Origin: Prevotella sp.
Lineage (GTDB): Bacteria; Bacteroidota; Bacteroidia; Bacteroidales; Bacteroidaceae
Assembly (NCBI GenBank): GCA_017554385.1
Contig: JAFZIL010000060.1
Location: 1 to 39,710 of the forward strand
DNA: 39,710 nucleotides
Reading direction: 5' to 3'
The first letter of the stretch is position 1. Each line of letters starts with the position of its first letter. Positions 7,776 to 34,528 of the stretch are shown piece by piece. The notes beneath the pieces are model-generated. The model did not search any database. It was given only the letters and a program-made list of their open reading frames with translations, and had not been told where the DNA came from. The position numbers were made by a program, and so were the translations under genes.

Positions 7776-7940
7776 ATGAAAAAGACATATATCAAGCCCA
7801 CAACGAGTCTGTTCGAGATTAAAGGAAAGCAGGCATTGCTACAAGCTTCTTATAATAAAAGTCTCGGTACGACTGGCGTTGATGGAAGTGCTGCTCTTTC
7901 CCGTGGCGGCGATGACTTCTGGGACGATGATGAGGAATAA
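7776..7940 (+). CDS. Small acidic-tailed protein (MKKxYxxP family), 54 aa
   Basis: ATG 7776 to TAA 7940 encodes 54 residues beginning MKKTYIKP and ending ALSRGGDDFWDDDEE. It has a clear Shine-Dalgarno-like AGGAGG (7761-7766) nine bases before the ATG, which is unusual in this phylum, and a terminator 50 bases downstream. It resembles the 58-residue protein at 34352-34528 (MKKIYQNP, VDG, SSALSRGGFWEDD) and, more loosely, the 66-residue protein at 12321-12521. All three directly follow a large secreted tail protein. There is no signal peptide or Cys. The basic start, variable middle and acidic Trp-containing end suggest a binding or precursor peptide, but the function is unknown. That it is a real gene is supported by the conserved pattern and the ribosome site. 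Confidence 0.75.
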   Translation: MKKTYIKPTTSLFEIKGKQALLQASYNKSLGTTGVDGSAALSRGGDDFWDDDEE

Positions 7941-7991
7941 TCATAAATGAGTAGTTTTAGTTATAGTATTGTTAGTGACTTTTTTATCGTA

Positions 7992-8033
7992 GTGCGACAG
8001 TGTCCGAGATGGATTCTGTCGCACCTTTTTTTT
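7992..8033 (+). terminator. Intrinsic terminator
   Basis: The stem GTGCGACAG (7992-8000) pairs with CTGTCGCAC (8016-8024), followed by eight T. It ends the 6203-7940 transcription unit. Confidence 0.85.
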
Positions 8034-8115
8034 GTGACCGTCGCAAAAGAGGGAGAATTGTACTCTATTACAAGAAAACGAACGAAATGACAGGGTAAAA
8101 AGACTCCAATTGATG

Positions 8116-8123
8116 TATTTTTG
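8116..8123 (+). promoter_or_regulatory. Promoter -7 box for the esterase gene
   Basis: TATTTTTG fits TAnnTTTG and is followed 31 bases later by ATG 8155. The -33 region is not a good match. Confidence 0.45.
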
Positions 8124-8154
8124 TGGTCAGAACAAACAAATATAACGAAAAGAC

Positions 8155-11100
8155 ATGAAAAAACTATTAACCATTGTCATTGGTCTGATGCTTGTCACTA
8201 CCGCATCGGCCGGAACGAAAGCCCTGTTCCTGACAGGCGGACAGTCGAACACCGACGGACGACTCTATGCCACTACGCTGCCCGCTTACCTACAGTCAGC
8301 CAATACTAACTGTTTAGTGTCGTATCATGCGGCTTACTCGGAGTCGCGTTTGGGAAAGTTCTATGCCTATTATCCTACCAGTGAGGGAATCGGCCAGCCT
8401 GGGCGATGGGCCTACGATGCCGTCGCCTATTATTATATAGCACAGGCGCTGCAGGAGACGTTCTATGTAGCGAAGACCAGCTATGGTGGTACGAGCATCC
8501 ATCCGGGCGTGAGCAACTCTGGTGGAACGGTGAACGGTGCTCCCTTCATTGACGGCTATGGCAGTGGCTACCACTGGAGTGCAGACCCCACTTTCCTGGC
8601 AGCAACGGCTATTGCCGGCACAAACTTTGTAAAGAACGAGACTACGTATACGGGTCAGTCGATGCTGTTGGCGTGGATTGCCAATATCGATGCGGCCATC
8701 GATGCCATCACTGCTCAGGGCGACACCCCCGACATCAAGGCGATCATCTGGCATCAGGGCGAGAGCGACCGCAATGCCGGTGGCTACTACGAGAACCTGA
8801 AGGCAATGGTGAAATATGTACGCGACCATCTGGTAGAGAAGACTGGCGAGTCGAAGTATGCCTCGCTGCCTTTCTTCTGCGGCACCATCCCCCATGCCTC
8901 GTCGCTCTACAGTTCGGCAGTGGAGAAGGCCTTCTTTACTTTAGAGGACGAGGATGCCAACTTCCATGCTGTAGATCTGCGCGACCTGACGATGCTTAGT
9001 GATACCAAGCACTTCGATGCCCCATCGGCAGAGCTCTTCGGCAAGCGCCTGTATAACCGCATGGTGGACGAGCATGTCATCACTGGTGACAAGCTCGACG
9101 TGGAATATGCACAGGTAGATTATTCCGACTTCGGTACCGATGAGTTCGTGGGTGAGACAAAGACCTGGGATTTCAATGGCTATACCAGTGACCTTGTTAC
9201 GAGCACTACGATTCAGGACAATCTCTATCTCCACTCTAACGGCATGAACTCGCGTAGATTTCTGTCGCAGTCGCCTGTGGTGAGCAGCGTGACTTTTGCT
9301 GATGGTACTGAGGTCAGCGTAAGCCGTGTGCTGACATCCAACAATGGTGGTGCCTACCAGTGGAGTCCCTCTGACATCGTTGATACGTATAATGCATCAA
9401 AAAGATTCACATTGACCATAGCCGCCAACGTTCTGTATCCAGGGCGCTTCAGTGTGATGATGAGCGTTCCAAGTGCAACGACGGAAGTTCCTCAAACAGC
9501 CAAGCTTATCTTTAACGGAAAGGTAGTAAAAGAGTTGGCCTTTACGAGCAATGCCCCGCAGGAACTCTATTTCGATGCTCCGGCTGCCGGTACCATCTAT
9601 ATGTATTCTGGAAGTCAGTTCTCGCTCTATGCCGTTCGCTACGTGCCTACCGTTGACCGCACCGGCCAGCGCACCGTGACCACCGATGCCGATGGCTATG
9701 CACCGTTCGGTAATATCACGGGGGCCAATCTCGGACTGCCCTCAGGGCTGACGGCATGGGCTGTGGTTCCTTCTGCAGAGAGCAACGAGAAGGTGGATAT
9801 GAACCAGCTCTTGGGCGTGGACAAGGGCACGGCAGCTCTGCTGCAGGGCGCTCCCAGCACCCAATATGTGCTGCCTTTTGCCTGGACGGCTCAGGAGTAT
9901 GAGGGTGAGAATGACATGACTGCCCAACAGACTACCGGTGAGATAGAAGAGACCTCAGGCGAGGATTTCATTAACTACATCTTCGCCAACAAGCAGTTTA
10001 CCAAGGCCTCAAGTCCCGTCAGCGTGGCTGCTGGCTCTGCCTACCTCAGCATCAGCAATGGTGCTGCCCATTGTGACAATAGCACGCTGACCTTCGATGA
10101 GCCTGAGGCAGATGCAGAGACCGACTGCGGACGAGACTTCGGAGCTGAGGTTGTGGTTAGCGAAGCCAGGACGTGGACGCTGGAAAGCATGACGGTGCCA
10201 ACTTATCAGGATACGGAGGCAGTGGAGTATAACGGATTGTATAGCAAGGCACAGGGCGGTTCTAACAATCGTTCCTGGAAGACAGGAACAGCCAACGTCA
10301 GCACCTCTTTCTCTGACGGCACGGAAGTAACCGCCACACGCTACTACACGCTCAACAACGATGCGGGTAGCAGCTCAACATCGGGTACGGCCACCGCTGC
10401 CAAGGCAGGAATGTACGACTACTTTGCCATCAACGCCCTCTATCCCGGCACGTTCTATGCGCTCATATCCTCGGGTGGTGATGCAGAAAAGACGCATAGC
10501 ATCTATTTCAATGGCACCTCAGTTGCCACCAAGACCACGACTTCAACGACGGTAGAGGAGCTGAAATACACGGCAACCGAAGCTGGCACGTTCGTCTATC
10601 ATTCTGGCTTGAGCGGCAGCCGCGTCTATGCCTTCCGTTTCGTCCCCACTACCGACAACACGGCTCTGCGTCAGGCCACGATGAACGCAGAGGGCTATGC
10701 CACGTTTACGAATATCGCGCTGGCACCGCTGACGCTGCCCGATGGCTTGGAGGCCTACGCCTTGTTGCCCGGAGATATCGATGATGACGTGACAAAGAAG
10801 GTGGAGGCAACCGTCATCGGTAAAGGTGAGGCCGTGCTGCTGAAGGGTAGTGCGGGCGAGACCTACACCATGACTATCGATAACACGCAGACCTCGGACG
10901 TAGATGGCGAGAACCTGTTGAAGCCCGTGCTGGCATGGAACAAGCCTTTGGCTAACAACACCGAGACAGGCAACGCCCAGTATATACTCAATGGCGATGT
11001 CTTCACCAAGGCCGACGGCACTACTAAGGTCTATCAGAAGGGGGCCATCCTCAGTGTGCCTACAGCAAACGTGATGGCAAACTACGGGACGGTGAAGCTG

Positions 11101-12291
11101 ACACCGGAGGGTATAGGCTTCGACAAAATCGAAGCCCACACTCTTTTCGGAAATGATGAGGTAGTGACGCAGGAGACTATCTGGCTCACGGGCGACATGA
11201 CGACGCCCGGTAGCGATGGCGTAGTGCAGCAGTTGAACGGTCTCTATGGTCGCGGACAAAAGGATTCCAAGAACCGTTCGTTCTTCAAGGCAAGTGGAAA
11301 TGGCTCTGCCACCTTCAGTGACGGTACAGCTGTCAATTGGACAAGTCACCTCTATATTAATTATGACTACAACAGCAGTTGGACGCTGAATGCTTCAACT
11401 ACTGCCAACACCACCACTTGTGGTGATTATCTGGCTGCCAATATCGCTGTGCCTGGCACGTTCTATGTGCTGTTCAGCAGTAAGGATGCAAGCCAAGAGC
11501 GCACCCTCGACCTCTACTATGAGGGCACAAAGTCTGCTTCTGCCACCTCAACGGGTTCTGGCGACATCAAGGAGATTAAATACGAGGTAGCTGAGGCTGG
11601 TACCTTGGTTCTCGACTGCCGCAACACCTGTCGCGTCTATGCCCTGCGCTTCGTGCCTGCCAATGCTGGTGTCTATAACCGCGTGACCGCTATCGGCTGG
11701 GGCTCTATGTCGCTGCCTTATCCCGCAGTGGTGCCCGATGGCACTTGTGTCTACTATGTCTCCGACTATGAAGACGGCACAGAGACCGGTACGCTGACGC
11801 TGACGAAGGTAGATGCCGGTGGCGTGATCCCCGCCAAGCAGGGTTTCCTGTTTAACGGTGGGCAGGGCCTCTACCGTTTCGAGAAGTCGATGACACCGGG
11901 TTCATGGACAGGTAACATGCTCGTGGGTACTGCCGATGCAGCGATGACTGGTTACGACCATACCAATGCTGCCGATCCCATCTACGTGCTGGCCTCGCTT
12001 GATGCTAATACCGTAGGTTTCAAGAAGTTCACGGGCACCAGCATCGCCCGGTATAAGGCTTATCTACAGCTTGGCACCATGCCCACGGCTCGTGCCTTCC
12101 GCATCAGCATCGATGAGATGGTGGATGGTGGAGGGTTGATGGTGGATGGTGGATGGTTGATGGTGGATAGTGGAAGGTTGATGGTGGATGGTGGAGGATT
12201 GAAGACATACTATAACCTGAGTGGTCAACGTGTCAATGCGAATCATAAGGGTATCGTGATCAAGAACGGCAGGATGGTATTTGTGAAGTAA
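8155..12291 (+). CDS. Large secreted SASA/CE6-like carbohydrate esterase with three beta modules
   Basis: A 1378-residue protein with a signal peptide (1-19). Residues about 22-305 form an SGNH-type esterase of the SASA (sialate O-acetylesterase / CE6) family: GGQSN with nucleophile S31, WHQGESD (199-205) and the D283-x-x-H286 pair in SDTKHFD. It should remove acetyl groups from glycans; pectin acetyl is likely from the context. Three related beta-rich modules of about 330 residues follow, starting near residues 337 (TWDF), 673 (TWTL) and 1008 (TIWL), each with a GTFYxLxSS-like strand and an RVYAxRFVP strand; binding or spacer roles are inferred. Near the end a four-fold heptapeptide (MVDGGGL and variants) precedes the tail YYNLSGQRV...KNGRMVFVK, resembling a type IX secretion signal. 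A tiny acidic protein gene follows. Confidence 0.88.
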   Translation: MKKLLTIVIGLMLVTTASAGTKALFLTGGQSNTDGRLYATTLPAYLQSANTNCLVSYHAAYSESRLGKFYAYYPTSEGIGQPGRWAYDAVAYYYIAQALQETFYVAKTSYGGTSIHPGVSNSGGTVNGAPFIDGYGSGYHWSADPTFLAATAIAGTNFVKNETTYTGQSMLLAWIANIDAAIDAITAQGDTPDIKAIIWHQGESDRNAGGYYENLKAMVKYVRDHLVEKTGESKYASLPFFCGTIPHASSLYSSAVEKAFFTLEDEDANFHAVDLRDLTMLSDTKHFDAPSAELFGKRLYNRMVDEHVITGDKLDVEYAQVDYSDFGTDEFVGETKTWDFNGYTSDLVTSTTIQDNLYLHSNGMNSRRFLSQSPVVSSVTFADGTEVSVSRVLTSNNGGAYQWSPSDIVDTYNASKRFTLTIAANVLYPGRFSVMMSVPSATTEVPQTAKLIFNGKVVKELAFTSNAPQELYFDAPAAGTIYMYSGSQFSLYAVRYVPTVDRTGQRTVTTDADGYAPFGNITGANLGLPSGLTAWAVVPSAESNEKVDMNQLLGVDKGTAALLQGAPSTQYVLPFAWTAQEYEGENDMTAQQTTGEIEETSGEDFINYIFANKQFTKASSPVSVAAGSAYLSISNGAAHCDNSTLTFDEPEADAETDCGRDFGAEVVVSEARTWTLESMTVPTYQDTEAVEYNGLYSKAQGGSNNRSWKTGTANVSTSFSDGTEVTATRYYTLNNDAGSSSTSGTATAAKAGMYDYFAINALYPGTFYALISSGGDAEKTHSIYFNGTSVATKTTTSTTVEELKYTATEAGTFVYHSGLSGSRVYAFRFVPTTDNTALRQATMNAEGYATFTNIALAPLTLPDGLEAYALLPGDIDDDVTKKVEATVIGKGEAVLLKGSAGETYTMTIDNTQTSDVDGENLLKPVLAWNKPLANNTETGNAQYILNGDVFTKADGTTKVYQKGAILSVPTANVMANYGTVKLTPEGIGFDKIEAHTLFGNDEVVTQETIWLTGDMTTPGSDGVVQQLNGLYGRGQKDSKNRSFFKASGNGSATFSDGTAVNWTSHLYINYDYNSSWTLNASTTANTTTCGDYLAANIAVPGTFYVLFSSKDASQERTLDLYYEGTKSASATSTGSGDIKEIKYEVAEAGTLVLDCRNTCRVYALRFVPANAGVYNRVTAIGWGSMSLPYPAVVPDGTCVYYVSDYEDGTETGTLTLTKVDAGGVIPAKQGFLFNGGQGLYRFEKSMTPGSWTGNMLVGTADAAMTGYDHTNAADPIYVLASLDANTVGFKKFTGTSIARYKAYLQLGTMPTARAFRISIDEMVDGGGLMVDGGWLMVDSGRLMVDGGGLKTYYNLSGQRVNANHKGIVIKNGRMVFVK
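12118..12201. repeat. In-frame heptad array, 12 units in 21-base super-repeats
   Basis: Twelve 7-mers (ATGGTGG, ATGGTGG, AGGGTTG and variants) form four 21-base units encoding MVDGGGL, MVDGGWL, MVDSGRL, MVDGGGL just before the secretion tail. A related GGTGGA tract occurs at 28612-28660 and at the right window edge. Confidence 0.9.
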
Positions 12292-12321
12292 CGAAAACGA
12301 AAACGAAGACGAAAACGAAAA
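12292..12321. repeat. Hexamer repeat before the small acidic gene
   Basis: Five CGAAAA-type 6-mers (one CGAAGA) fill the whole gap between the esterase stop codon and ATG 12321; the last A belongs to the start codon. It is purine-only apart from C and may act as an unstructured leader. It is the only clear tandem repeat here with a 6-base period. Confidence 0.8.
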
Positions 12322-12521
12322 TGAAAAAGAGATATATTGAGCCTGCAGTGCTTATAACGTATGTAGAGCCACTGCGAATGACATGCTCGAGTGTCCTCGG
12401 TGTTACGGGTACCGGCAACATGGACACCGAGGTCAGTGACGAGGAGACCGATGAGTATCTGACACGTCGCAATTACAACCTATGGGATGAAGAGGATGAA
12501 GAGGAAGAAGAATATTGGTAA
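12321..12521 (+). CDS. Small acidic-tailed protein (MKKxYxxP family, divergent), 66 aa
   Basis: It begins MKKRYIEPAV, shared in pattern with the small proteins at 7776 and 34352, and ends LWDEEDEEEEEYW, a stronger acidic tail with the same Trp after a basic/aromatic patch (TRRNYNLW). It starts 29 bases after the stop of the esterase gene, a repeat of the big-secreted/tiny-acidic order seen elsewhere in the window. Its last 35 bases overlap the start of the deacetylase-rhamnosidase fusion in another frame, so the two may be translationally coupled. There are no membrane segments; the single Cys is in the middle. Function is unknown. Family membership is weaker than for the other two because the ALSRGG stretch is replaced. 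Confidence 0.7.
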   Translation: MKKRYIEPAVLITYVEPLRMTCSSVLGVTGTGNMDTEVSDEETDEYLTRRNYNLWDEEDEEEEEYW

Positions 12522-15500
12522 TCGAATAATCATACTGCTTGCCGCTGTATGTTGTCAGGTAAGTGCTCAGCAGGTCAGTGTCGCGCCGTATTACGGTGGA
12601 CGGCAGGCCGCGTTGAGCCTGACGTTTGATGACGGTCTCGAAGACCAGTACACACTGGCTTTTCCCCAGCTGAAGGCACGGGGACTGAAAGCGACCTTTG
12701 CCGTCATCGGCTCGAAGGTAGGTGGTGTCATGCGCTCCAAGCAGGACCGTCACGACGGCATCGATGGCACACCCTGCATGACGTGGGCAATGCTGCGTGA
12801 GATGTCCTCCGAGGGAATGGAGATAACTAACCACGGCTGGCAGCACCAGAACGTCACCCGACTCAGTGGTGAGGCTTTGCGCTATGAAGTGCAACACAAC
12901 GACAGCGTCATCTTTCAACAGACAGGACAGTTCCCGCGAACCTTTTTCTATCCCGGCAACAACAAGAGCGAAGAGACCATCGCTTTCTGCGAGCAGGGCC
13001 GGGTGGGCAGTCGCACCTATCAGGTGAGCATTGGTTCGAAGCGTAACAGCGCATGGCTCCGCCAATGGGTTGACGGACTTATCGAACAAGGTCAATGGGG
13101 TGTCGGTATGACCCACGGTATAGCCCGTGGCTACGACCATTTTGGCGATCCTCAAGTGCTGTGGACTTTCTATGACTATCTGGTAGAGAAACAGGACGAG
13201 TTGTGGGTGGCACCGTTCTCTGAAGTCTCTGCATACGTGAAGGAGCGTGACAATGTGCACCTGACAGTAGAGAAGACGCCCGTTGGCATCTGTATCACCC
13301 CAATCATCACGCTCGATCGCCAATTGTTTTCGCAACCGCTCACACTGGTCATTGACAGTCAAGATGTGTTGTCGGTCACGCAGGGTGGACAATCACCCAT
13401 CCCCGTCTTTCATCATCAGGGAAAAACGCTGTTCGATATCGATCCATTCGGAGATTGCGTACAGGTTGTTCTTTCGGCACAGGCCCAGACAGAACGCCCC
13501 ACGATGGGCTGGAGTTCATGGAACACATATCGTGTAAACATCTCTGACTCGCTCATCATGCGGCAGGCTGATGCGATGGTGATGAAGGGACTGAGAAAGG
13601 CTGGCTATCAATATGTGAACATCGATGACGGCTATTTCGGAGGTCGCGACAAGACATCGGGACGGTTGCTCATTCATCCGAGGCGCTTCCCTAACGGACT
13701 GAAACCCGTGGTGGACCATATCCACCGCTTGGGTCTGAAAGCAGGCATCTATAGCGATGCAGGGCGCAATACATGCGGCAGTATATACGATGCTGACACT
13801 ATCGGCGTGGGTGTTGGACTCTACGGGCACGACCAGCAGGACTGCGACCTGTTCTTCCGTGAACTGGGCTTCGATTTCATCAAGGTGGACTACTGCGGCG
13901 GACGGCCCCATCCCAAGGGCGACACCCTCTCTCTCGACGAACATACCCGTTATACGGAGATTGCCGAGGCTATTCGTAAGACGGGACGAAAAGATGTGCG
14001 ACTGAATGTCTGCCGATGGGACTATCCTGGTACATGGGTCTCAGATGTGGCCTCTTCCTGGCGTATGTCACAGGACATCCGTCCCAAGTGGGAGTCGGTG
14101 AAGAACATCATCCAGCAGAACCTCTACCTCTCGGCCTACGCCGGCGGCGGTCACTACAACGACATGGACATGCTGGAGGTGGGACGCGGCATGAGTCAGG
14201 AGGAAGACCATACTCACTTCGCTGTGTGGTGCATGATGTCATCGCCCTTGCTCATCGGTTGCGACCTGATGAAGATAAAGCCAGAGACCTTGAACCTGCT
14301 GACCGACCCGCAGCTGATAGCCATCAACCAAGACCCTCTTGGCCTGCAGGCCTACGTAGCCAAACGTCAGGGCGACTGCTACGTATTAGTCAAGGATGTC
14401 AAGAAACTGAACGATACAGAGCGTGCCGTCGCTTTTGTCAATCTATCGGACGAGGAGCAGACGATAAACCTTGACTTGCGAGACATTGACTTGGTAGGCG
14501 ATGCCTTGTCGGCAGCGATGCCTCCGCATGCTACTCGCATCTTTGTGGTCAAGGGCAAGCAGCGCTTACAACGTCGGATATACGAGGCCGAGACGGCTTT
14601 CCTTACAAGCTACCAGGAACTCAAGAATAACCAAGCCTACCTGACGGCTATCTATGAAGAAGACGTCCGTTGTAGTGGTGGCGTGAAGGCATCGTGGTTG
14701 GGTGGACGTGCAGATAACGACATGCGTTGGCGTGATGTCTATGTCGACAAGGCGGGGCGCTACTGCCTGCGTCTTAATTGTCTGACGGATGAATCGCGTA
14801 CTATGTATATTGATGTCAACGGCAGAACCGTTGACTCGCTGTCCTTCCACGTGAATGGCGAGCAGACCGTCTTTGCAGACCTGCTGGCAGGATGCAACGA
14901 GGTGCGCCTGTGGAATGCCGAGGGGCGTATGCCCGATGTGGATTATATGATTGTCGATGACCATCCTGTGGCCTTTGGCAGACTAACTGTTGAGGGACGC
15001 GTAGAGCCATTAGGCCTTGATGACCTTCACCCCCGTTTCGGCTGGCAACTCGTGTCGGGCGAAAACGATGTACGCCAGACTGGGTATCGCATCATCGTCT
15101 CTTCATTCCCAAATGACCAAATCATCTGGGACAGTGGTGAGATGCAGAGTGATAGTTCACAGTGGGTGGCCTACAAAGGTTCTGCATTACAGCCCAATAA
15201 AGATTATTACTGGCAAGTACGTGTGACCACCAATAAAGGGATTTCTGACTGGAGTCGTGTGCAGAAATGGAGTATGGGGCTTCTTGATGCTGGTAACTGG
15301 AAGGGCGACTGGATCGGTCTTGACTCGCTGACCGATGATGTGAAGTTGGAGCGTCACAGTCGTATTGCTGCCCGTCATCTTCGCAAGGACTTCCAGATAA
15401 GCAAACCGCTGAAGCGTGCTACGGCTCATGTCTGTGGTCTGGGTTATTATATTTTGAATATCAATGGTCAGCGCATAGGCGACTATCTCCTTGCACCTGC

Positions 15501-17622: not shown

Positions 17623-17707
17623 ATTAGTTCCCAAAGAGAAAGACATCACCCCGTCGAGTGGGCATTGGCGCTTCCCAAACAGTTGGGACAAGGACAAGAT
17701 AGACGTA

Positions 17708-18277
17708 TTGGAGAAGTTCCTCGGCCACTGTCTTGACATCTGCAAGCAAGGGGCCTCGCCCATGAACATTGAGCATTATGCCATAGCCTGTGCCACCGCC
17801 CACATCAAGGAGACTATGCCCTTGCTGCAGCGGCTCTTTACCGAGTTGAGCTTCCCCACGATGATTCTCACTGACGGTGCGAAAGAGTTGAAACGGGTCA
17901 TGAACGACAGCAAGATACCCTTCTTCTGCCTGTATCCCAGTATGGACAAATACCTGCACGACAAGGAGGAACTCTCTCAACTGGACGAGGCCGACTGGGC
18001 AGCAATGGAAGATGACTATTCTGATGCTTATGATGATGACTCCATCTACGACTCATCGGAAACAGCCAAACGCTATACCGTCCGCATTGAGCTGACTGGA
18101 GGCCCTGAGCCAGTAGTACGTACGCTCCAAGTGCCATCGAACATGTATCTCACGCCCTTTACCGAACTGCTCATGCTCAGCTTTGGCCGTCAGGACGTAC
18201 CCGACCACTACGAGTACAGCGACGAAGACATGCGTTTTCTGCCCGATGCCGACGACCATGCGCAGACGTATCCGTGA
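17708..18277 (+). CDS. pRiA4b ORF-3-like protein, probably truncated or decaying
   Basis: The frame is open from 17606 to 18277 but has no ATG before 17762; TTG 17708 is a possible start. Protein-like sequence (HWRFPNSWDKDKIDVLEKFL) precedes any start, suggesting a lost 5' end. Residues about 123-165 (RYTVRIELTGGPEPVVRTLQVPS...LSFGR) resemble the core of plasmid pRiA4b ORF-3 family proteins, of unknown function, often found near transposons. An acidic stretch (DEADWAAMEDDYSDAYDDD) precedes it. The end looks early: in another frame the DNA continues with RRRIRDFEEENEDIM and a stop at 18308, compatible with a frameshift. It sits between the fusion enzyme and the transposase-like unit, a likely insertion hot spot. 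Only moderately sure that it is functional. Confidence 0.5.
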   Translation: MEKFLGHCLDICKQGASPMNIEHYAIACATAHIKETMPLLQRLFTELSFPTMILTDGAKELKRVMNDSKIPFFCLYPSMDKYLHDKEELSQLDEADWAAMEDDYSDAYDDDSIYDSSETAKRYTVRIELTGGPEPVVRTLQVPSNMYLTPFTELLMLSFGRQDVPDHYEYSDEDMRFLPDADDHAQTYP

Positions 18278-18308
18278 CTTCGAGGAGGAGAACGAAGATA
18301 TCATGTAG

Positions 18309-18716
18309 CTAATCAAACTTCAACCATCCACAGCCATACCTCCTTGAAACGGGCGGCATAGAGGGCGGTGGTCTTCATGTTAAAAAGATGTTTGACATTT
18401 GAGCGGACATTATTCGCCCTTTCCGTTTCGCACCGCTTTAGATATAATTCCGTGTATCATTTCGTGGCTAAATTCTTCTCCAATTTCTATTTTGCTATAC
18501 ATCTATACACTAAAATTGTCTGAAATATCAATGTATAAAGGTGTTCTGGATGTTTCCAACTATACATAAAACGTTGTGAAATAACGATAAATAAAGGATT
18601 ACGGACAATTTTTATGTAGAGATAGAGAAAAATTCATGAAGAGCCACGAAAATTGTACTTCGAGAGCAAGTGGCGCAGTCAGGGGATGGTCTATCTGATA
18701 GTTGAGCGGTAAGTGT
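18309..18716. other. AT-rich stretch without recognisable gene
   Basis: About 400 bases with no supportable gene. It holds short TATACAT/ATGTATA inverted motifs (around 18495 and 18531) and scattered stop codons. It precedes the left repeat of the transposase-like unit. Confidence 0.6.
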
Positions 18717-18846: not shown

Positions 18847-18930
18847 GTATAAGTTCCGTTCTTTTACGGAAATTCTATTTCCGCTATCAAATCGACAATA
18901 CGTAGATACCCCCCACCAAAGCAGTGACCC

Positions 18931-22527: not shown

Positions 22528-22559
22528 CAGCAGTTTAAAACCAAAACGTGCAAAAAAAC

Positions 22560-24908
22560 ATGAAACAATCAAGGTTCGCTCTTCTCATTTCGTTGATTAT
22601 TGTATCTCTACATGCCTCGGCCCAGTTGTCGTCCCAGCAGCTGGAGAATCGTGCCTTGTGGGGCTCTATCGCTATAGCTCCGAGTTCAGGCAACATCAAC
22701 CTGGGCGACTATCAGCAGGCCAATAACAAGGTGTTGCTCACGTGGCGCATGCTGCCCGGTGACGACGAGAACACCGCCTTCAACCTGTGGCGCTCGATGG
22801 GCGAGACTGGGGTGTGGACCTGCGTGAACGACCCGTTGAAGTCCGGCAAGAAGGGCATCAAGGCTACCAACTACCAGCATGCAGCGATGTCGAACATCAC
22901 AGGCGACGTGCACTACCGCCTGACCTATGCCGACGAGAACGTGACGGGAGCCAACATGAACTGCGATGACTACATTGCCGAATACACCATGTCGATGGAG
23001 CAGGCCAAGAGTAAGGTACCGTATGTCTCCATTCCGTTGCAGTCGACCGACGACTGCTCGGACTATCCCCAGTACCTGAAGTATCAGGCCAACGACTGCT
23101 CCGTGGCCGACCTTGATGGCGACGGCCAGATGGAGGTGGTGGTGAAGCGACTGCTTACCGTCTACAATGATGCCGGTGAGGTCACGGGTAGCAGCGAGGC
23201 AGCCGGCGGCAGCGACGTTCGTGCCCGACACATCATCGTATGGGATGCCTATAAGCTCGATGGCACCATGCTGTGGCGCGTGAAATCGGGACCGAACATC
23301 ATCCCTGGCAACAGCTCGAGCGTGATGTTGGGCGACCTTGATGGTGACGGCTGTGCCGAGTTCGTGCTGAAGACCGGTGAGGGTACCGTCTTCGGTGACG
23401 GCACTGAGATGGGCGATACCGACGGCGATGGCATCACCGACTATCGCAAGAATTGGAATGGCGGTCATTATACGGGCGACTTTGCCGGAAAATACGGCGG
23501 TCCGGAGTATTTCTCCGTTGTCGACGGAAAGACGGGGCGCGAGCTGGCTCGTGCCAACTTCATTGCCCGTGGTCCCGAAGGGCAGACACCCGAACAGTGG
23601 GTGGCCAACTGGAGTACGAACAGCAACTCCTGGGGCGACGGCTACTGGAAGCGCGCCAACTCGCTGCGCATGGGACTGGCCTGCTTCACTGGCAAGGGCA
23701 TGCAGGTGTTCCTCGGACGTGGCGTCTATGCACGCACCGTGGTTGAGGGCTGGGACTATACACCCGGCACCCCCGACAGTCAGTGGGGACTCGAAGGAAC
23801 GCTCACCCGTCTGTGGAAGTTCGACTCGGGCATCACTTCCGGTCACTGGTCTCTCGTCGATGGTGAATGGAAGAAGGACGGTGCCAAGAACAAGGACGGC
23901 AAGGCCAACTCGGCCTACTCTGGTCAGGGCAACCATGCCTTCAACGTAGCCGACCTCGACGGCGACGGACTCGACGAGGTAATGTACGGTTCGTGCGCCT
24001 TCGACAACGACGGCACCGGCCTCTGGTCTACCGGCCTCGGTCATGGCGATGCCAACCATGTGGGGGTGTTCCAGAAAGACTACGACGGACTGCAGGTGTA
24101 TCACTGCCTGGAAGGTGGTGTCACCGAGGTGGCCCTCCACGATGCCAAAACGGGTGCCGTGATCTGGGACATCCGCGCTGCCACTGCCGGTGACCAGGGT
24201 CGCTGCATGGTGGCCGACGTAGACCCCAAGTCGCCTGGTTGCGAGTTCTGGAAGTACGGCAACGAGCTGTTCAACCAGAACGGCAAAGCCCTCTATAATA
24301 GCGCCGGTACGGGGCGTGCTGAAGAGAGCTCGTGCAACGCCGGCATCTGGTTCGACGGCTACCTGAACCGTCAAATGATCGATGGAGGTATCATCAACAG
24401 CTACAGCCACGGACGTACGTTCACGATGTACCGCTATGATATGTCGTTCAACAACTCCACGAAGTCAAATCCCGGCTGGTACGGTGATATGCTTGGCGAC
24501 TGGCGCGAGGAGGTGATCGTGCCCAGCTCCGACAAGCTGACCGACATCAAGATTTTTTCTACTTGGTATCCTACCGAGCACCGCATTCCCTGGCTGATGA
24601 CCGACCATACCTATTATATGCAGGCCATCCATGAGAACGTAGGCTACAACCAGCCGACGAACGTGGGCTACTACTTAGGAAGCGACTATGCCAGCGATGC
24701 CGAGATATGGGCTGCCGCAGCTAAAGTGGAGGCCGACCGTCTGACCGCCCTTGGGCAGACGCTCACAGACATCAGCGATGTTACAGCAGAAGGCCAACGG
24801 CTAACAACCAACAGTCAACAGCAATACTACACGCTGAATGGTCAGAAGGTCACCACACCGCATCGCGGCATCTATATCCGTAACGGCAAAAAGATCATAG
24901 TAAAGTGA
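22560..24908 (+). CDS. Family 11 polysaccharide lyase, rhamnogalacturonan lyase
   Basis: Read from ATG 22560 it gives 782 residues with a clean signal peptide (MKQSRFALLISLIIVSLHASA|Q, cut after 21); GTG 22548 is less likely. The body matches PL11 enzymes (YesW/YesX type): fibronectin-like start (VLLTWRMLPGDDENTAFNLW), then an eight-bladed propeller with calcium loops DLDGDGQ (184), DLDGDGC (259), DLDGDGL (465) and late motifs GNHAFNVAD, WYGDMLGDWREEV and STWYPTEHRIPWLM. These enzymes split the rhamnose-galacturonate bond of rhamnogalacturonan-I by beta-elimination, so this gene is the best evidence for the substrate of the region. A short heptad tract precedes the tail YYTLNGQKV...YIRNGKKIIVK, a likely type IX secretion signal. 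Only 12 bases separate it from the convergent regulator. Confidence 0.95.
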   Translation: MKQSRFALLISLIIVSLHASAQLSSQQLENRALWGSIAIAPSSGNINLGDYQQANNKVLLTWRMLPGDDENTAFNLWRSMGETGVWTCVNDPLKSGKKGIKATNYQHAAMSNITGDVHYRLTYADENVTGANMNCDDYIAEYTMSMEQAKSKVPYVSIPLQSTDDCSDYPQYLKYQANDCSVADLDGDGQMEVVVKRLLTVYNDAGEVTGSSEAAGGSDVRARHIIVWDAYKLDGTMLWRVKSGPNIIPGNSSSVMLGDLDGDGCAEFVLKTGEGTVFGDGTEMGDTDGDGITDYRKNWNGGHYTGDFAGKYGGPEYFSVVDGKTGRELARANFIARGPEGQTPEQWVANWSTNSNSWGDGYWKRANSLRMGLACFTGKGMQVFLGRGVYARTVVEGWDYTPGTPDSQWGLEGTLTRLWKFDSGITSGHWSLVDGEWKKDGAKNKDGKANSAYSGQGNHAFNVADLDGDGLDEVMYGSCAFDNDGTGLWSTGLGHGDANHVGVFQKDYDGLQVYHCLEGGVTEVALHDAKTGAVIWDIRAATAGDQGRCMVADVDPKSPGCEFWKYGNELFNQNGKALYNSAGTGRAEESSCNAGIWFDGYLNRQMIDGGIINSYSHGRTFTMYRYDMSFNNSTKSNPGWYGDMLGDWREEVIVPSSDKLTDIKIFSTWYPTEHRIPWLMTDHTYYMQAIHENVGYNQPTNVGYYLGSDYASDAEIWAAAAKVEADRLTALGQTLTDISDVTAEGQRLTTNSQQQYYTLNGQKVTTPHRGIYIRNGKKIIVK
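24793..24827. repeat. In-frame degenerate heptads before the secretion tail of PL11
   Basis: 7-mers GCCAACG, GCTAACA, ACCAACA, GTCAACA, GCAATAC encode the linker GQRLTTNSQQQY between the enzyme and its C-terminal tail. Confidence 0.5.
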
Positions 24909-24920
24909 TAAACTGTGGCC

Positions 24921-29333: not shown

Positions 29334-31429
29334 ATCTCTGGTTTGAGATTTCTGGTTTGAGGTTTGAGGTTTTTCTGCTGTTCGCGGTATTGCGAGGGGT
29401 TGATGCCGAACTTCTTCGCGAACGAGCGGCGGAAACTGCTGGGGTCGCTGAAGCCGCAGGCCATGTAGATCTCGCCGATAGGCGTTCCAGCCATGAGCTG
29501 TTGGGCGGCATAGTCCAGGCGGATGTCGCGCACGAACTCCATCACTGCCTTGCCCGTCTCGTTCTTCATCAGCTGGAACAGCTTCGTGCGGCTCATGGCC
29601 AGCTCCTGTGCCATCTGTTCGGCTGTGAAGTCGGCATCGGCAATATGTGCCTCGGCTATGGCAGTGGCCTTGAGGACAAAGGGGGAAAGGCTACGGGTAG
29701 GCGCGTCAGCGGGAATAAGGCTACGAGCGGGCGCGTCAGCGGGAATGGGCTCCACTTCCCTGACTTCTTCTGGCATCAAGGGAACTGGTTCTTGATTCTT
29801 CTTTCTCATATAATAATAGGTGGCACCGCAGCCTACGACGATCAGCAGGCCTATTAGCCAGTAGTACCACGTTGTTGAGCCAGATTCTTCACTCTTCACT
29901 CTTAACTCTTCACTTATTTCTTCCAGCCACAGCTGCGACGTGCCGCTGCGCAGTTGCTCATCGAGGCTGTCGGCCTGTAGGCAGTCGATGCCCATAGTGC
30001 CCCCGAAATAGAGAGTGCCCGTGCGGCTGTCGATGCAGGCCGAGCCGTCTAAGTACTCGTTATGCTCGGTATGCAGTATGGTTGACTGTCCTGTATAGAT
30101 GTTCACGCAGCAGAGTCCCTGCTCGTGGATGCACCACAGGAAGTCACGCCAGCAGAGCAGGTCCTTCACGATATGCCCGTCGGCAGCTGTGCTCACGGGC
30201 TGCACGCTCTGCTCGCTAACCTGTATCAGACCGTTGTCAGTGCCCACCCATGTCTGTCCCCTCGCATCGGTAACGATGGCGTGGGCAGCGTCCTCATACC
30301 ATTGGGTGATCTTGCCGTCGGCCCGACAGTATAGTCCTTTGGCCGTTGCTATCCACAGCCGGTTCTTGTCTACTGCTATCTTGCTGATGGTGGAGCCGGT
30401 GCTGTCTACCAGTTGGGCTTGGGGCTGCCGGTCGTCAGGCTTCAGCAGGTACACGCCTCGGTTGGTGCCTATCCACAGGTTTCCCTCTTTGTCCAAGCAG
30501 AGGCTATAGACGGCGACGGCCTTCTTTCCAGCTATCTTCATACGACTGAAGTCAGTAGCAGAGTTTTCCTTCATGTAGAGTCCGTCGTGGGTGCCAAGCC
30601 ACAGGCGCCCCTTTCCGTCCTCGACGATGGCACGCAGGCGGCGACCCTCGATGGAGTCGGTCATGGGATAGTCCACGTGGGTGGTCTGGCGCGAGCCCTT
30701 TGGCAAGGCGAGCAGTTGCTGGTCGCCAATGGCTATCCAGAGCGTGCCCTTGCTGTCCATGCAGGTTGCCCGCACCAACGGGTTCGGCTGGCATACCATT
30801 CGCCGGTAATGACTATGGCGTGTGTCGGCAAAGAACAGTCCGTTGTTGGCCGAGCCTGCCCAGAGAATGCCCTGACGGTCGAGCAGCAGCGAGTAGAACG
30901 TCTCGTCCTTCAGGCCTGCCTCGATGGCTGTCTGTCCGGTGTACGTGAACTGGTTTTCGGGCTTCAGCATGTCGGTCTGCAGTAGCTGGCGCTTTTTTAT
31001 CTCCCACACCCGCGACGAGCGAGGGTCGGCAAATGTTCGGTTCAGGGGTTGTACGGCCTGTTCGCGAAGGGAGTCGCTGAGGTCGCTGACGTTGTAGGTC
31101 ACGAAATGTTGCGATAGTGTGTCGTAACAGCTCACCTGCTGGTGGCGCTCGAAGCACTGCACCCACATCGTACCGTCCTTGGCAAGGTTGATGCGGTCGA
31201 CGCGCTTGTCGGGCAGTCCGTCGGAGGGAATAGCGGTGAACTGTCGTCCGTCGTAGCGCATTAGCCCTACGTGTGTCGCCACCCAGATATCTCCCTTTGC
31301 ATCCTGTGCCAGCGTGATGATGCTGTTATGTGGCAAACCGTCCTTCACCGTCAACTGGTGAAAGTGCAGCGTCTGCCCCTCCGTGACGAGGGCAACAAGC
31401 ACGAACAGGATGGTTAGTAATTTCTTCAT
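29330..31429 (-). CDS. Membrane propeller sensor fused to AraC regulator, no kinase
   Basis: Read from ATG 31429 it gives 699 residues with signal peptide MKKLLTILFVLVALVTEG (an upstream in-frame ATG would spoil it). Periplasmic two-component propeller blades (about 20-490; LPHNSIITLAQDAKGDIWVA, GNLWIGTNRGVYLL), one membrane helix (about 522-540, WYYWLIGLLIVVGCGATYYY), a cytoplasmic linker with a 30-base tandem repeat, and an AraC helix-turn-helix domain (about 595-690; FTAEQMAQELAMSRTKLFQLM, CGFSDPSSFRRSFAKKFG). Kinase, receiver and Y_Y_Y domains are absent, so signalling must pass directly through the membrane or by pairing with another protein. It overlaps the full HTCS gene by ATGA (29330-29333), so the two are made together. 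Its end is encoded by a heptad tract (NLKPQTRNLKPEI). Confidence 0.92.
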   Translation of the reverse strand: MKKLLTILFVLVALVTEGQTLHFHQLTVKDGLPHNSIITLAQDAKGDIWVATHVGLMRYDGRQFTAIPSDGLPDKRVDRINLAKDGTMWVQCFERHQQVSCYDTLSQHFVTYNVSDLSDSLREQAVQPLNRTFADPRSSRVWEIKKRQLLQTDMLKPENQFTYTGQTAIEAGLKDETFYSLLLDRQGILWAGSANNGLFFADTRHSHYRRMVCQPNPLVRATCMDSKGTLWIAIGDQQLLALPKGSRQTTHVDYPMTDSIEGRRLRAIVEDGKGRLWLGTHDGLYMKENSATDFSRMKIAGKKAVAVYSLCLDKEGNLWIGTNRGVYLLKPDDRQPQAQLVDSTGSTISKIAVDKNRLWIATAKGLYCRADGKITQWYEDAAHAIVTDARGQTWVGTDNGLIQVSEQSVQPVSTAADGHIVKDLLCWRDFLWCIHEQGLCCVNIYTGQSTILHTEHNEYLDGSACIDSRTGTLYFGGTMGIDCLQADSLDEQLRSGTSQLWLEEISEELRVKSEESGSTTWYYWLIGLLIVVGCGATYYYMRKKNQEPVPLMPEEVREVEPIPADAPARSLIPADAPTRSLSPFVLKATAIAEAHIADADFTAEQMAQELAMSRTKLFQLMKNETGKAVMEFVRDIRLDYAAQQLMAGTPIGEIYMACGFSDPSSFRRSFAKKFGINPSQYREQQKNLKPQTRNLKPEI
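29335..29369. repeat. Heptad tract at the C-terminus of the kinase-less regulator
   Basis: TCTCTGG, TTTGAGA, TTTCTGG, TTTGAGG, TTTGAGG encode the final residues of the regulator, two bases from the ATGA overlap with the HTCS gene. Confidence 0.75.
29687..29746. repeat. 30-base tandem repeat, two units
   Basis: Two copies of a 30-mer (29687-29716, 29717-29746; 27 of 30 bases alike by eye). On the coding strand it gives IPADAPTRSL and IPADAPARSL in the cytoplasmic linker between membrane helix and AraC domain. Confidence 0.85.
29887..29914. repeat. In-frame heptads outside the membrane helix
   Basis: CTTCACT, CTTCACT, CTTAACT, CTTCACT; on the coding strand SEELRVKSEES. It is the same sequence type as 1-98, but one unit has TTA where TGA would stop the frame. 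Confidence 0.8.
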
Positions 31430-31437
31430 TGGTGCTG

Positions 31438-31469
31438 CAAAAATAGAAAAAAATGATGAAAATAGCAAA
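31438..31469 (-). promoter_or_regulatory. Promoter of the two-regulator operon
   Basis: On the minus strand TTTG (31469-31466), 20 bases, TATTTTTG (31445-31438), a full match to the Bacteroidetes -33/-7 consensus. Only 8 bases lie between the box and ATG 31429, so the transcript would be nearly leaderless. Confidence 0.7.
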
Positions 31470-31584
31470 CTTTTTGGATAGTTTTTGTACGAAAAGTCCT
31501 ATTTTGTACGCAATGTCCTGCGATTAGGCACCTGCTGTCTGATTAAATGAACGTCTCGTTTTAGCCTCTTTCAACATTAATGCG

Positions 31585-31592
31585 TAAATTTG
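31585..31592 (+). promoter_or_regulatory. Promoter -7 box for the 31629 unit
   Basis: TAAATTTG followed by CAAGCAG, 36 bases before ATG 31629. The expected -33 TTTG is not a clean match. Confidence 0.4.
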
Positions 31593-31628
31593 CAAGCAGA
31601 AAAATGAAACTCCTAAAACTACAAAAAG

Positions 31629-31928
31629 ATGAATCAAACGTTCTATTTCAACGCAAGAATGACGCATACCTTTCTTAAGTATGCGGAGAACGCCCACATT
31701 GGCAATCGTAAGGTGCTTCTGTTGATTGAAAACCTGAGAAAGGGTCTTTCGGAAGAGGAGAAGCTGAAGGAACAAGGGCAGACGGACAAGTTGTATTCCA
31801 GCATCCGCAAGAACGTGAAGACTTGCAGTTGCATCATGCTCCACGTACAGTGTCTGGCCGACATCTCCGACAACCACGAGCCCTACGACCGCTTCATCAA
31901 CGACTGGAGCAACCTCATGGCATCTTGA
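31629..31928 (+). CDS. Small helical protein of unknown function
   Basis: A 99-residue protein without signal peptide or membrane helix. It is predicted to be mostly helical (MTHTFLKYAENAH, KVLLLIENLRKGLSEEEKLKEQG, CSCIMLHVQCLADISD) with a Cys-x-Cys. No family recognised. It is divergent from the regulator operon and 47 bases upstream of a secreted tail protein, so it may share its transcript. Coding is supported by a promoter-like box and by the stable open frame with reasonable composition; the function cannot be stated. Confidence 0.65.
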   Translation: MNQTFYFNARMTHTFLKYAENAHIGNRKVLLLIENLRKGLSEEEKLKEQGQTDKLYSSIRKNVKTCSCIMLHVQCLADISDNHEPYDRFINDWSNLMAS

Positions 31929-31975
31929 TCAACTACGATACAACAAACAACTTATTAACATATCTACTAAAACAA

Positions 31976-34288
31976 ATGAAAAAATTACTATTCAAAACTA
32001 TCCTACTCGCTGCCGCAATGGGAGTGGGGACGAGTAATGCGTGGGGAGATGGTATCAAACGAACACTAACTGCTCAGAACTACGAAAGCGCCACAAGTAC
32101 TGACTGGACATGCCCTAATGGTGGAATAACAATAAAGACAGGTGATGCTACCTATGGTACATATTCACAATGTTATCAAGGAGGAGGTAGTGGACACAGA
32201 ACATGTTATAGAACTGTTTCTTTTGGTTATGCTGCTGGAACAGGTTACACCACTTCCAAAAAAGCGACATTGGGATATGTTGTTGAATTTGACTGTCAGT
32301 TGACAACAGGTAATGCAAGTGGATCCGGCGGTTCTGTAGATCAGTTTTTTGTTCCAACCTCCGCAGCTATCATTTCCAACAATAATGAGTATACGGGTAG
32401 TGACTATGTGTTCTTTTTGTCACAAAAGAGAGGCAAAAATGTTGAAAAGACAGAATACTGGTATGTCAATGACCCATTGAATTCAACTGGTTCTACTGTT
32501 TCATTAAGTGAAAGCAAATGGTATCATATTAAACTTGTATGTACCGCGACCTCTGTTGATTACACAATCACAGACAACTCTACCACAAATGAAGTCCAAA
32601 CTGGTTCAAAGATCGTTGCCTCTCTTCCTTCGATTAAAGGAATATGGGCTTTACTTGGACGTGCTAACGGTAAACTGAATTTTGACAATCTGGATATCTA
32701 TGACTATATGGATACTGAAGATTTCACCATTCCAGCACCTACATTTGCATTTACCCGCGTAGATGGCGCCAACCGCATTTATTCCTTAACAAATAATTAC
32801 GGAACAGGAACTCTATATTATACCACTTCACCTGCTGCTGAGGCTCCTGCTGTAGGCAATGCCGCCTATACACCAACAAGCCTTACAAGCAAATCAGTAA
32901 CTTTTAGTGAAAGTGGAACATATTATGCTTATGTAATGCATGAGAATGGAACAAAGAGTTCTTCAGTATCTTCTCAGGTAGTAACTGCAGGTGCAATCAC
33001 TTTGGAAGAGCCTACTATTAAAGTCACAAATGTTGTTGCTAATGGCAGTTACTATTCACCACAATACACAATTGCTTGCAACAACTCTGCTCTTGAGGGC
33101 GCTCCAACAGCTACACTCACCGCAACATATAACGGCGAAGAAGTGGATATTAGTAGTGGTACATTCACTCCTAATACGATAGGAGAACTTATTGTGACCG
33201 CTACAGCAAGTGGATACACTAGTAGTACAAAAAGTTTGGATATTGACTATGCCCTGTTTTCTAAAATTCATGAATCTCCTGATTTTGGAACAATTGCTTT
33301 GAAAGATCTGAAACAGACATTTAGTGGAACTTGGACTATTGCAGATGGTACAACAAGATGGTCGAACTGGACAAGAGGAGAAGGAAAAAATGCGGATTTA
33401 AGTGATGCCAGTGGTACTGGTGACAATTATTACTATGCTACTGTAGATGGGAACTTTACGTATGATACTTGGTTATCTGTAACAAGAGGCAACAATTTGA
33501 AATATTTGGCTGGCTATGGATTTGGCACAAATGAGAAAGGGACTTCAGATGTTGTAAAGTGTAATATAACCGATGCAACGACAAATTCTATAGCCGCTTA
33601 TACACATTGCCAAAATTCTTCTTATACTACTGTTGTTCAAGACGCAACAACAACATATTCAAATCCACAAAGCAGAGCATTGAAGAAGGTTGTATATTAT
33701 GAGCCAATCAATCCATCGTTTTCCCAAACCATCACCGCCGCTGGTTGGGCAACCCTCTACACAGCATATCCTCTTGACTTCTCTGGCGTTGACGATCTGA
33801 CCGCCTACACAGCAACTTGCTATGGTTCTACCGTAACCCTGACCAAGGTGAATGATATTCCAGCGAATACGGGTGTGGTGCTGAAAGGAGCTGAAAACAC
33901 CTATAACATTCCTGTAATTGCCAGTTCAGAGACCGACAAGGGTGACTTGAAGGGTTCTGCAACCACCGCAACTGAATTCAATGCTGTCTCGGGCTATGAC
34001 CTTTACATGCTGGCAATGAACGGAAACGACGAGGCTCAGTTCACTAAGGTGACAAGTGGTTCGATTGCAGCAGGCAAGGCCTACCTGCAAGTAGAGCAAA
34101 GTGGTGACAGTAATGCTCGTTCACTCAGCGTGGTGTTTGCCGATGAGACAACCTCTATAAGTGAAAAGGGAATAGGGAATAGTGATAAATTTGCTACCGC
34201 TCATTATTATGACCTGCAGGGTCGCCGTGTGAATCAACCCACGAAAGGCTTGTACATCAAGAATGGTTGCAAAATCGTGATTAAATAA
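31976..34288 (+). CDS. Secreted multi-domain surface protein with type IX secretion-like tail
   Basis: Read from ATG 31976 it gives 770 residues with signal peptide MKKLLFKTILLAAAMGVGTSNA; a longer frame upstream overlaps the previous gene and is not used. N-terminal part (about 25-245) looks like a LamG/concanavalin-like fold (ATLGYVVEFDCQL, KWYHIKLVCTATSVDYTI, LNFDNLDIYDY). Then a chitobiase-C-like beta domain (YYTTSPAAEAP, SGTYYAYVMHENG), another Ig-like domain, and a final module (AGWATLYTAYPLDFSG, IPANTGVVLKG, SGSIAAGKAYLQV) shared with the protein at 6203. Tail YYDLQGRRV...GLYIKNGCKIVIK. No catalytic motif was seen; glycan binding at the surface is inferred. It looks AT-richer than the enzyme genes, like its paralogue. 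A tiny acidic protein follows 63 bases later. Confidence 0.88.
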   Translation: MKKLLFKTILLAAAMGVGTSNAWGDGIKRTLTAQNYESATSTDWTCPNGGITIKTGDATYGTYSQCYQGGGSGHRTCYRTVSFGYAAGTGYTTSKKATLGYVVEFDCQLTTGNASGSGGSVDQFFVPTSAAIISNNNEYTGSDYVFFLSQKRGKNVEKTEYWYVNDPLNSTGSTVSLSESKWYHIKLVCTATSVDYTITDNSTTNEVQTGSKIVASLPSIKGIWALLGRANGKLNFDNLDIYDYMDTEDFTIPAPTFAFTRVDGANRIYSLTNNYGTGTLYYTTSPAAEAPAVGNAAYTPTSLTSKSVTFSESGTYYAYVMHENGTKSSSVSSQVVTAGAITLEEPTIKVTNVVANGSYYSPQYTIACNNSALEGAPTATLTATYNGEEVDISSGTFTPNTIGELIVTATASGYTSSTKSLDIDYALFSKIHESPDFGTIALKDLKQTFSGTWTIADGTTRWSNWTRGEGKNADLSDASGTGDNYYYATVDGNFTYDTWLSVTRGNNLKYLAGYGFGTNEKGTSDVVKCNITDATTNSIAAYTHCQNSSYTTVVQDATTTYSNPQSRALKKVVYYEPINPSFSQTITAAGWATLYTAYPLDFSGVDDLTAYTATCYGSTVTLTKVNDIPANTGVVLKGAENTYNIPVIASSETDKGDLKGSATTATEFNAVSGYDLYMLAMNGNDEAQFTKVTSGSIAAGKAYLQVEQSGDSNARSLSVVFADETTSISEKGIGNSDKFATAHYYDLQGRRVNQPTKGLYIKNGCKIVIK
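34161..34200. repeat. Degenerate heptads plus ATTTGCTACCGC at tail junction
   Basis: GTGAAAA, GGGAATA, GGGAATA, GTGATAA then ATTTGCTACCGC (34189-34200), the same 12-mer that follows the 98-base tract at the left window edge (101-112). The preceding GAGACAACCTCTATAAGTG is identical to the paralogue at 7617-7635. Confidence 0.65.
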
Positions 34289-34351
34289 TATTCATGGAAA
34301 TTCGTGGGCAATTCGTGGTAATTCGTGTTAAATAAAGAAAGGAATAAAGCA

Positions 34352-34528
34352 ATGAAAAAGATATATCAGAATCCTAAAATAACAATTGTAAAAATTCAGG
34401 CAGCAAAGATTCTTGCAGGATCTGATCCTGAAGGTTTCAACGGAGGCCTCAATGTCGATGGAGGAGCCGGTAGCAGTGCCCTTAGCCGTGGTGGCTTCTG
34501 GGAAGACGACTCCGACGATGAGTGGTAG
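34352..34528 (+). CDS. Small acidic-tailed protein (MKKxYxxP family), 58 aa
   Basis: From ATG 34352 it reads MKKIYQNPKITIV, a Gly-rich middle (GGLNVDGGAG) and the end SSALSRGGFWEDDSDDEW. The last part matches the 54-residue protein at 7776 (SAALSRGGDDFWDDD) almost residue for residue while the middles differ. A GTG 27 bases upstream in frame is a less likely start. Like its relative it directly follows a secreted tail protein of the same build and precedes a terminator. There is no signal peptide, Cys or membrane segment. It is probably cytoplasmic unless exported by an unknown route. Function unknown; the repeated pairing suggests a role tied to the big protein, such as a partner peptide, or a peptide precursor. 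Confidence 0.78.
   Translation: MKKIYQNPKITIVKIQAAKILAGSDPEGFNGGLNVDGGAGSSALSRGGFWEDDSDDEW

Follow-up and report, generated by a model that had tools for sequence, protein, structure and literature searches.

Tiny acidic proteins of an apparently undescribed family are paired with a C-terminal module of large secreted proteins in Prevotella-type bacteria

Results

A 39,710-nt stretch of Prevotella sp. DNA (GCA_017554385.1, contig JAFZIL010000060.1, positions 1 to 39,710; "the window") carries three genes for tiny acidic proteins, each directly behind a gene for a large, putatively secreted "cargo" protein whose tail resembles a sorting signal of the type IX secretion system (T9SS). Comparison with other genomes indicates that the three genes belong to a large, apparently undescribed family in Prevotella-type bacteria. 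It further points to a module directly in front of the tail, which we label AYL, as the partner of the family. Sequence comparison was used to show the family itself, selection on its coding sequence, its pairing with the module, an operon-like layout, and co-inheritance with the module.

The tiny genes form a family under purifying selection

The initial annotation described three frames of 54, 66, and 58 aa with an MKKxYxxP start and a W-containing acidic tail, and translation confirmed all three. Two of them carry ALSRGG..FW plus D/E (SAALSRGGDDFW, SSALSRGGFW). They are the only frames in the window that fit MK[K/R]x[Y/F]..P. Across the whole genome (3.06 Mb, 98 contigs, 81% complete), MKKxYxxP as a coding pattern gave 11 matches versus 0 for the reversed pattern; 9 of the 11 translate as family members and 2 (on C49 and C77) look like chance. 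A profile of nine members of this genome (A1) found 13 members in it; when 100 genomes of the genus were searched at an E value of ≤0.01, 87 had at least one member and one had as many as 26. Within the GTDB family to which the window belongs, a profile of 34 members (A2; E ≤ 0.001) matched 137 of 201 genomes, in 22 of 30 genera. The homologs that the annotation had proposed to look for in related genomes are thus present. Across the phylum, 2 of 296 genomes matched, one of them being the genome of the window.

We compared 163 distinct members. Their lengths have a median of 57 aa (48 to 69 residues from the 5th to the 95th percentile), a size easily missed in annotation, as had been suspected. 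The median net charge is −5, with +2 in the first eight residues and −4 in the last fifteen, and 129 of the 163 have a W within the last 20 residues. Most members lack a signal peptide or a long hydrophobic stretch; our own cut-off for the latter was exceeded by 8 of the 163. The consensus is MKKtYxxPxxxVVxIxxxxMLAxS, with [LIM][AC]xS conserved around residues 21 to 24, followed by a variable middle and then often by [S]R...W and D/E.

The family is under purifying selection. The pooled ratio of nonsynonymous to synonymous substitution rates (dN/dS) was 0.34 over 11 independent pairs (597 codons), a value biased downward by the selection of pairs with at least 60% amino acid identity, and the same pairs differed at 115, 75, and 175 first, second, and third codon positions. 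The pN/pS was below 1 in each of three regions: 0.32 for residues 1 to 25, 0.55 for the middle, and 0.45 for the last fifteen residues. Neutral substitution, named at the outset as grounds for doubt, was therefore not found, and the claim of a real coding family rather than chance frames held up on both the reversed-pattern control and dN/dS.

The initial annotation knew of no described function, and searches of Pfam and NCBIfam with the tiny proteins gave single-member weak matches at most. The window proteins had 0 matches to curated lasso precursor models, and an Rfam scan of the window gave no element at gathering score. By sequence, solved structures yielded two weak matches to MtrB (E values, 0.027 and 0.064), which we take as chance. 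The literature searches made here found no description of the family or of its pairing. A phage origin was also considered and rejected: tblastn of one member (P0003) against 50,697 phage records gave no match. At one locus of this genome (L019, positions 6927 to 8234, contig C18), the tiny gene continues in frame into a secreted protein as a 435-aa open frame; by its motif, that protein resembles a DNA/RNA nuclease.

The tiny genes go with a module before the tail rather than with the tail itself

In the window, the tiny genes start 19, 29, and 63 nt behind cargo genes whose products have a signal-like start (judged by eye) and a GRRV/GQRV...KG..I..NG tail. These cargos match the tail profile A3, which includes them, at an E value of 4e-16 or better. 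We inspected 60 tiny-gene loci hand-picked, not at random, at about every third row among the strongest profile matches; further loci inspected by eye were left out of this count. The direct upstream gene carried the tail in 49 of the 60 loci, versus 12 of 168 other genes of these regions (E ≤ 1e-4 with a profile from other loci).

In most upstream proteins, the signal is directly preceded by the AYL module (GWATLY...PANTGVLLKG...YVL...GFYK...KAYL; 132 to 171 profile positions). The AYL profile, with default filters, matched 83 of 94 paired cargos, but 78 of these had trained it, so that this is not an independent count. Training used cargos reached via the tiny genes of other species, which biases the profile toward that class; the genome of the window was excluded and thus allows a fair test of the pairing. 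Its tail genes (94 of 95 rows at E ≤ 1e-3, C2:37005 being left out) were scored for a tiny gene within 450 nt with a profile that contains nine members of the same genome. A tiny gene lay behind 12 of 16 AYL-positive tail genes, two of the 12 (on C40 and C21) being weak variants, but behind 0 of 78 AYL-negative ones (Fisher P = 4e-12). Two more AYL genes, on C6 (tiny gene present) and C58 (downstream unreadable), have weak tails and fall outside the 94. The initial annotation had placed each tiny gene behind a protein with a T9SS-like tail. That placement stands, but the tail alone is rejected as the partner: because of the 12/16 versus 0/78 split, we assign that role to the module before the tail.

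The converse search started from the module. Among the 78 loci taken as the best of 412 relatives of five such cargos, 74 had a tiny gene behind the module gene, and one of the four without was at a contig end. These loci lie in other genomes, mostly Prevotella or Prevotellaceae and many from ruminants, with a pair in the rumen strain Prevotella communis E15-14 (L238) among them; some duplicate genomes already searched (L224 and L150 have an identical tiny protein). The excess behind tail genes that the annotation had anticipated is thus seen from both directions.

Per-genome counts of modules (from at most the best 20 candidates per genome) and tiny genes correlated with a Spearman coefficient of 0.82 over the 201 genomes, with relatedness not removed, and of 0.73 within the 155 that have a match to SprA (TIGR04189; over the cut-off in 154 of the 201, the genome of the window included). 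Both elements were found in 126 genomes and neither in 46; 11 had the tiny gene alone and 18 the module alone. The range of the module is as narrow as that of the tiny family: 6 of 296 genomes in the phylum sample had a match. No Pfam family occurred in more than one of 56 module-plus-tail sequences, and a sequence search for solved relatives of the module gave none at E ≤ 1.

Several observations weigh against this pairing or its link to T9SS. Of the 11 sampled loci outside the 49, two have weaker tails and nine are exceptions: one is at a contig end (L149), one has a fimbrillin-like gene upstream (L117; tail profile, 2e-4), and seven (L101, L108, L129, L131, L135, L138, and L143) have no same-strand tail gene in front. 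In the genome of the window, 4 of the 16 AYL tail genes have no tiny gene within 450 nt; the one on C46 has a member some 440 nt behind the cargo, and none was found for C62:95234, C64:31989, and C62:54854. No tiny-gene match was obtained in 18 of 144 module genomes, and no module match in 11 of 137 tiny-gene genomes. When seven genomes were chosen for having the module without a tiny-gene match, 9 of 26 readable module genes (30 in all, 4 of which ran off the stretch) did have a tiny gene, three of the nine being weak (E values, 0.02 to 0.2) and accepted by motif. Genus g8 supplies seven of the nine, from 11 module genes, and these seven have a divergent form, YEAPxVEVxEVxVEKGFAxS; genera g12 and g21 together have a tiny gene at 2 of 15 module genes. 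Finally, 10 of the 137 tiny-gene genomes have no SprA match, including one (G109) with 20 tiny genes. The pairing of module and tiny gene is strong but not universal.

Among the seven loci without a tail gene, three (L135, L138, and L129) have other neighbors: two follow a presumed copper-type ATPase gene in related genomes, and one lies between presumed Era-like and Der-like GTPase genes.

Cargo and tiny gene form an operon-like, co-inherited unit

The median gap between cargo and tiny gene is 43.5 nt. Terminator-like hairpins were found in 0 of 74 stretches between the genes, which are mostly shorter than the 150 nt scanned after the tiny genes, and in 40 of 74 of the latter (4 of 74 when these were shuffled). 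Two of the three window tiny genes have a hairpin behind them; the one at 12321 runs into the next gene. There, at 12487 to 12521, the letters that encode the closing D/E run of tiny protein 2 also encode, in another frame, the K/R-rich start of the signal-like N terminus of the next open reading frame (ORF). Inspection by eye showed the gap at 34289 to 34351 and the stretch after 5343 at L174 to consist of short repeats of the AATTCGTGG/CACGAATGA type, which at C46 widen the gap to the some 440 nt noted above.

Similarity between modules and similarity between tiny proteins correlated with r = 0.384 (151 pairs). Shuffles within genomes gave 0.306 (standard deviation, 0.018), and 0 of 1,000 reached the observed value. 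Since the shuffles retain r = 0.306, most of the correlation lies between genomes and a smaller part within them. For pairs whose C modules were at least 55% identical while their N parts showed no detectable similarity (43 comparisons), tiny-protein similarity was 0.371 versus a background of 0.198; these comparisons share sequences and are not independent, and some N parts are truncated by the locus end. The N parts are varied. Among 47 scanned, we found Big_2 (six), chitobiase C-terminal type (four), and BspA-type LRR (two) domains, with single lyase, esterase, glucosaminidase, and peptidase domains. The alignments as given comprise 24 of 30 rows for A4 (some trimmed), 56 of 83 for A5 (module), 71 of 94 for A6 (tiny family), and 47 of 50 for A8.

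A divergent branch lies beside lipoprotein-like genes

The main and divergent forms of the family align over residues 1 to 25 (hhalign probability, 90%; E value, 1.4e-6; 24% identity). A divergent profile matched 23 of the 201 genomes at E ≤ 0.01, some of the matches being main-family members. In one genome (G248), 9 of 9 copies sit 39 to 89 nt upstream of a gene for a 756- to 1,104-aa protein with a lipoprotein-like start, and a SprA search of that genome gave no match. The nine lie on C1 at 1794000 to 1851900 (L361 to L363), each before a different large lipoprotein-like gene, within about 50 kb. Similar pairs were seen elsewhere among the genomes, whereas further divergent copies lie behind tail genes. 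Seven lipoprotein-like neighbors from four genomes gave one fimbrillin-like match below the cut-off; the other six had no Pfam match. The picture of a tiny gene behind a tail protein needs refining for this branch, which has a lipoprotein-like neighbor and the reverse gene order. Its location suggests a step common to both routes and preceding T9SS, such as pre-export handling.

Features of the window

The coordinates of the tiny genes and cargos are collected in Table 1. The full cargo 1 protein, used as a query against the genome contig collection, found no relative. In cargo 2, a repeated VDGGGLMVDGGWLMVDSGRLMVDGGG linker lies between the last AYL module and the signal (about 12100 to 12190). 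The ORF at 12487 to 17622 encodes a 1,711-aa protein that combines polysaccharide deacetylase, alpha-galactosidase (melibiase), and alpha-L-rhamnosidase domains; the window also holds RGL11 and GH28 genes. A regulator at 29330 to 31468 has propeller repeats and an AraC-type domain with no histidine kinase match, whereas the adjoining hybrid regulator (24921 to 29333) does match histidine kinase.

Table 1. Tiny genes, cargo genes, and associated elements of the window
Feature	Position	Strand	Basis or remark
Tiny acidic protein 1, 54 aa	7776..7940	+	Translation, profile match
Tiny acidic protein 2, 66 aa	12321..12521	+	Translation, profile match; end overlaps start of ORF 12487-17622
Tiny acidic protein 3, 58 aa	34352..34528	+	Translation, profile match
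Cargo 1, 517 aa, signal-like start, no Pfam match	6203..7756	+	
AYL module, cargo 1	7184..7576	+	A4 E 1.2e-37 (A4 includes this sequence); independent profile E 1.5e-31
Short T9SS C-terminal signal, cargo 1	7622..7753	+	A3 E 1.1e-19 (A3 includes this sequence)
Hairpin, −22.1 kcal/mol, and T-run behind tiny gene 1	7992..8033	+	Own fold; absent from tool scan
Cargo 2, 1378 aa, SASA-type esterase and three AYL modules	8155..12291	+	
AYL copy 1, cargo 2, residues 473-637	9571..10065	+	AYL profile
AYL copy 2, cargo 2, residues 804-972	10564..11070	+	AYL profile
AYL copy 3, cargo 2, residues 1137-1311	11563..12087	+	AYL profile
Short T9SS C-terminal signal, cargo 2	12178..12288	+	A3 profile
Cargo 3, 770 aa counting from the first ATG (TTG 31823 in the ORF list)	31976..34288	+	
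AYL module, cargo 3	33722..34102	+	A4 E 1.2e-39 (A4 includes this sequence); independent profile E 3.8e-34
Short T9SS C-terminal signal, cargo 3	34151..34285	+	A3 profile
Stem of 11 pairs behind tiny gene 3, terminator-like	34575..34600	+	Tool scan and own fold
RGL11 lyase (contrast): same short signal, no AYL match, no tiny gene	22548..24908	+	

Discussion

We tentatively favor the explanation that the tiny protein is a dedicated pre-export partner of the AYL module. One message would yield two proteins per cassette: a large Sec-exported, T9SS-sorted surface protein with the AYL module as its last mature domain, and a leaderless acidic protein of about 57 residues dedicated to that module. 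The latter would most likely remain in the cytoplasm, and the position of its gene would allow synthesis just after the module leaves the ribosome. With its conserved MKKxYxxP..V.I....LAxS end and an aromatic/acidic other end, it may bind the module and, once bound, keep the precursor export-competent or gate its export. A cytoplasmic, pre-export role is favored because the proteins have no signal and mostly no long hydrophobic stretch and because they would be expressed right after the module. The suggestion of a partner peptide in the initial annotation fits this explanation.

A wider and still more tentative proposal takes in the divergent branch. Leaderless YxxP...AxS mini-proteins may be undescribed pre-export partners of large surface proteins of Bacteroidaceae on two sorting routes, one for cargos with AYL and the short T9SS signal, which the tiny gene follows, and one for large lipoproteins, which it precedes. 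AYL, signal, and mini-protein would then make up a portable 3′ cassette for many ectodomains. The pair, a simple two-gene unit, recurs across Prevotella-type genomes, and should export or display depend on the tiny protein, the latter would add a step to surface building in gut and rumen Bacteroidota.

Alternatively, the tiny protein might itself be exported, leaderless or cut near LAxS, and act outside with the module, for example as a peptide signal after release or as a subunit that stays bound. The module is predicted to be the last mature cargo domain, beside the attachment site (cleavage at PT/GI and glycan attachment in Prevotella intermedia, in the parts of PMC11969387 covered), and the conserved [LIM][AC]xS motif followed by a variable middle would suit such a cut. 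We nevertheless consider export of the tiny protein rather unlikely: most members lack a signal peptide or long hydrophobic stretch, no export route is known, and the pN/pS of the middle is unlike that of a freely diversifying peptide.

It is also unlikely, in our judgment, that the tiny protein is a regulatory microprotein feeding back on its own cargo gene at the level of translation, expression, or mRNA stability. The operon-like layout, the tiny size and acidity, and a position downstream of the partner in one branch and upstream in the other would all be consistent with such feedback, but the tiny protein goes with a protein module rather than with whole cargos, and the pairing follows module similarity.

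The leader/core design that the initial annotation offered beside the partner peptide found no support. It would correspond to a precursor of a ribosomally synthesized and post-translationally modified peptide (RiPP), with an MKKxYxxP leader, a variable core, and an enzyme encoded elsewhere. The nearly invariant Y..P can be likened to the lasso-leader motif, the middle is variable, and a weak lasso match (E value, 0.014) was obtained for 1 of 71 members. However, the other 70 have none, the middle has a pN/pS below 1, and a lasso-type precursor is unlikely because the lasso-type protease PF13471 is over the cut-off in 2 of the 201 genomes, neither of which has a tiny-gene match. Below the cut-off, PF13471 appears in nine more genomes (11 of 201 at E ≤ 0.001), with no match in the genome of the window. 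The lasso reading is therefore not supported by precursor models and PF13471 distribution, and a RiPP of any kind appears improbable, the search having covered lasso-type enzymes and neighbors within the window but neither non-lasso RiPP enzymes nor neighbors beyond it. Chance or hitch-hiking open frames, which very small size and variability might have suggested, are ruled out for practical purposes by the reversed-pattern control, the substitution pattern, and hundreds of family matches.

A pre-export partner of the AYL module would have several counterparts among known systems. Type III secretion chaperones are likewise small, acidic cytoplasmic proteins encoded beside their cargo, but they are larger, folded dimers serving another machine, and no relation to them was seen for the tiny proteins in Pfam or NCBIfam. 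Their size counts against the explanation that we favor, since the tiny protein, at about 57 aa and with a variable middle, does not reach the size of the chaperones compared. In polymorphic toxins, a C-terminal module and the next small gene, for immunity, also stay together behind unrelated N parts; here, however, a sorting signal comes after the C-terminal module, which is itself conserved, and there is no sign of a toxin.

In the T9SS literature covered, cargo recognition is treated as a matter of the C-terminal signal, whereas here the presence or absence of a tiny gene behind a cargo goes with a second, unnamed module. For P. intermedia cargo with short C-terminal signals, cleavage at PT/GI and glycan attachment have been shown (Ye et al. 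2025, PMC11969387). The signal class set out in the covered parts of that paper, PT/GI followed by a short end piece that contains motifs B, D, and E, and with a signal peptide in front, is like the cargo tails found here; neither the AYL module nor a tiny gene behind the cargo is described in those parts, and a count of the terms "downstream" and "small protein" in the main text gave 0 for each. According to the portions of PMC10202324 covered, type B T9SS cargo has a cognate PorP/SprF protein, usually clustered with the cargo gene, and thus likewise a cargo-specific partner beside the cargo gene. PorP/SprF is a PorV-like outer membrane beta-barrel that goes with another signal type, whereas the partners described here are acidic proteins without a signal; at 54 to 66 aa in the window and with no Pfam match, they are too short for such a barrel. 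Type B cargo with its cognate PorP/SprF is the nearest published design found, and the tiny family is a partner of another kind.

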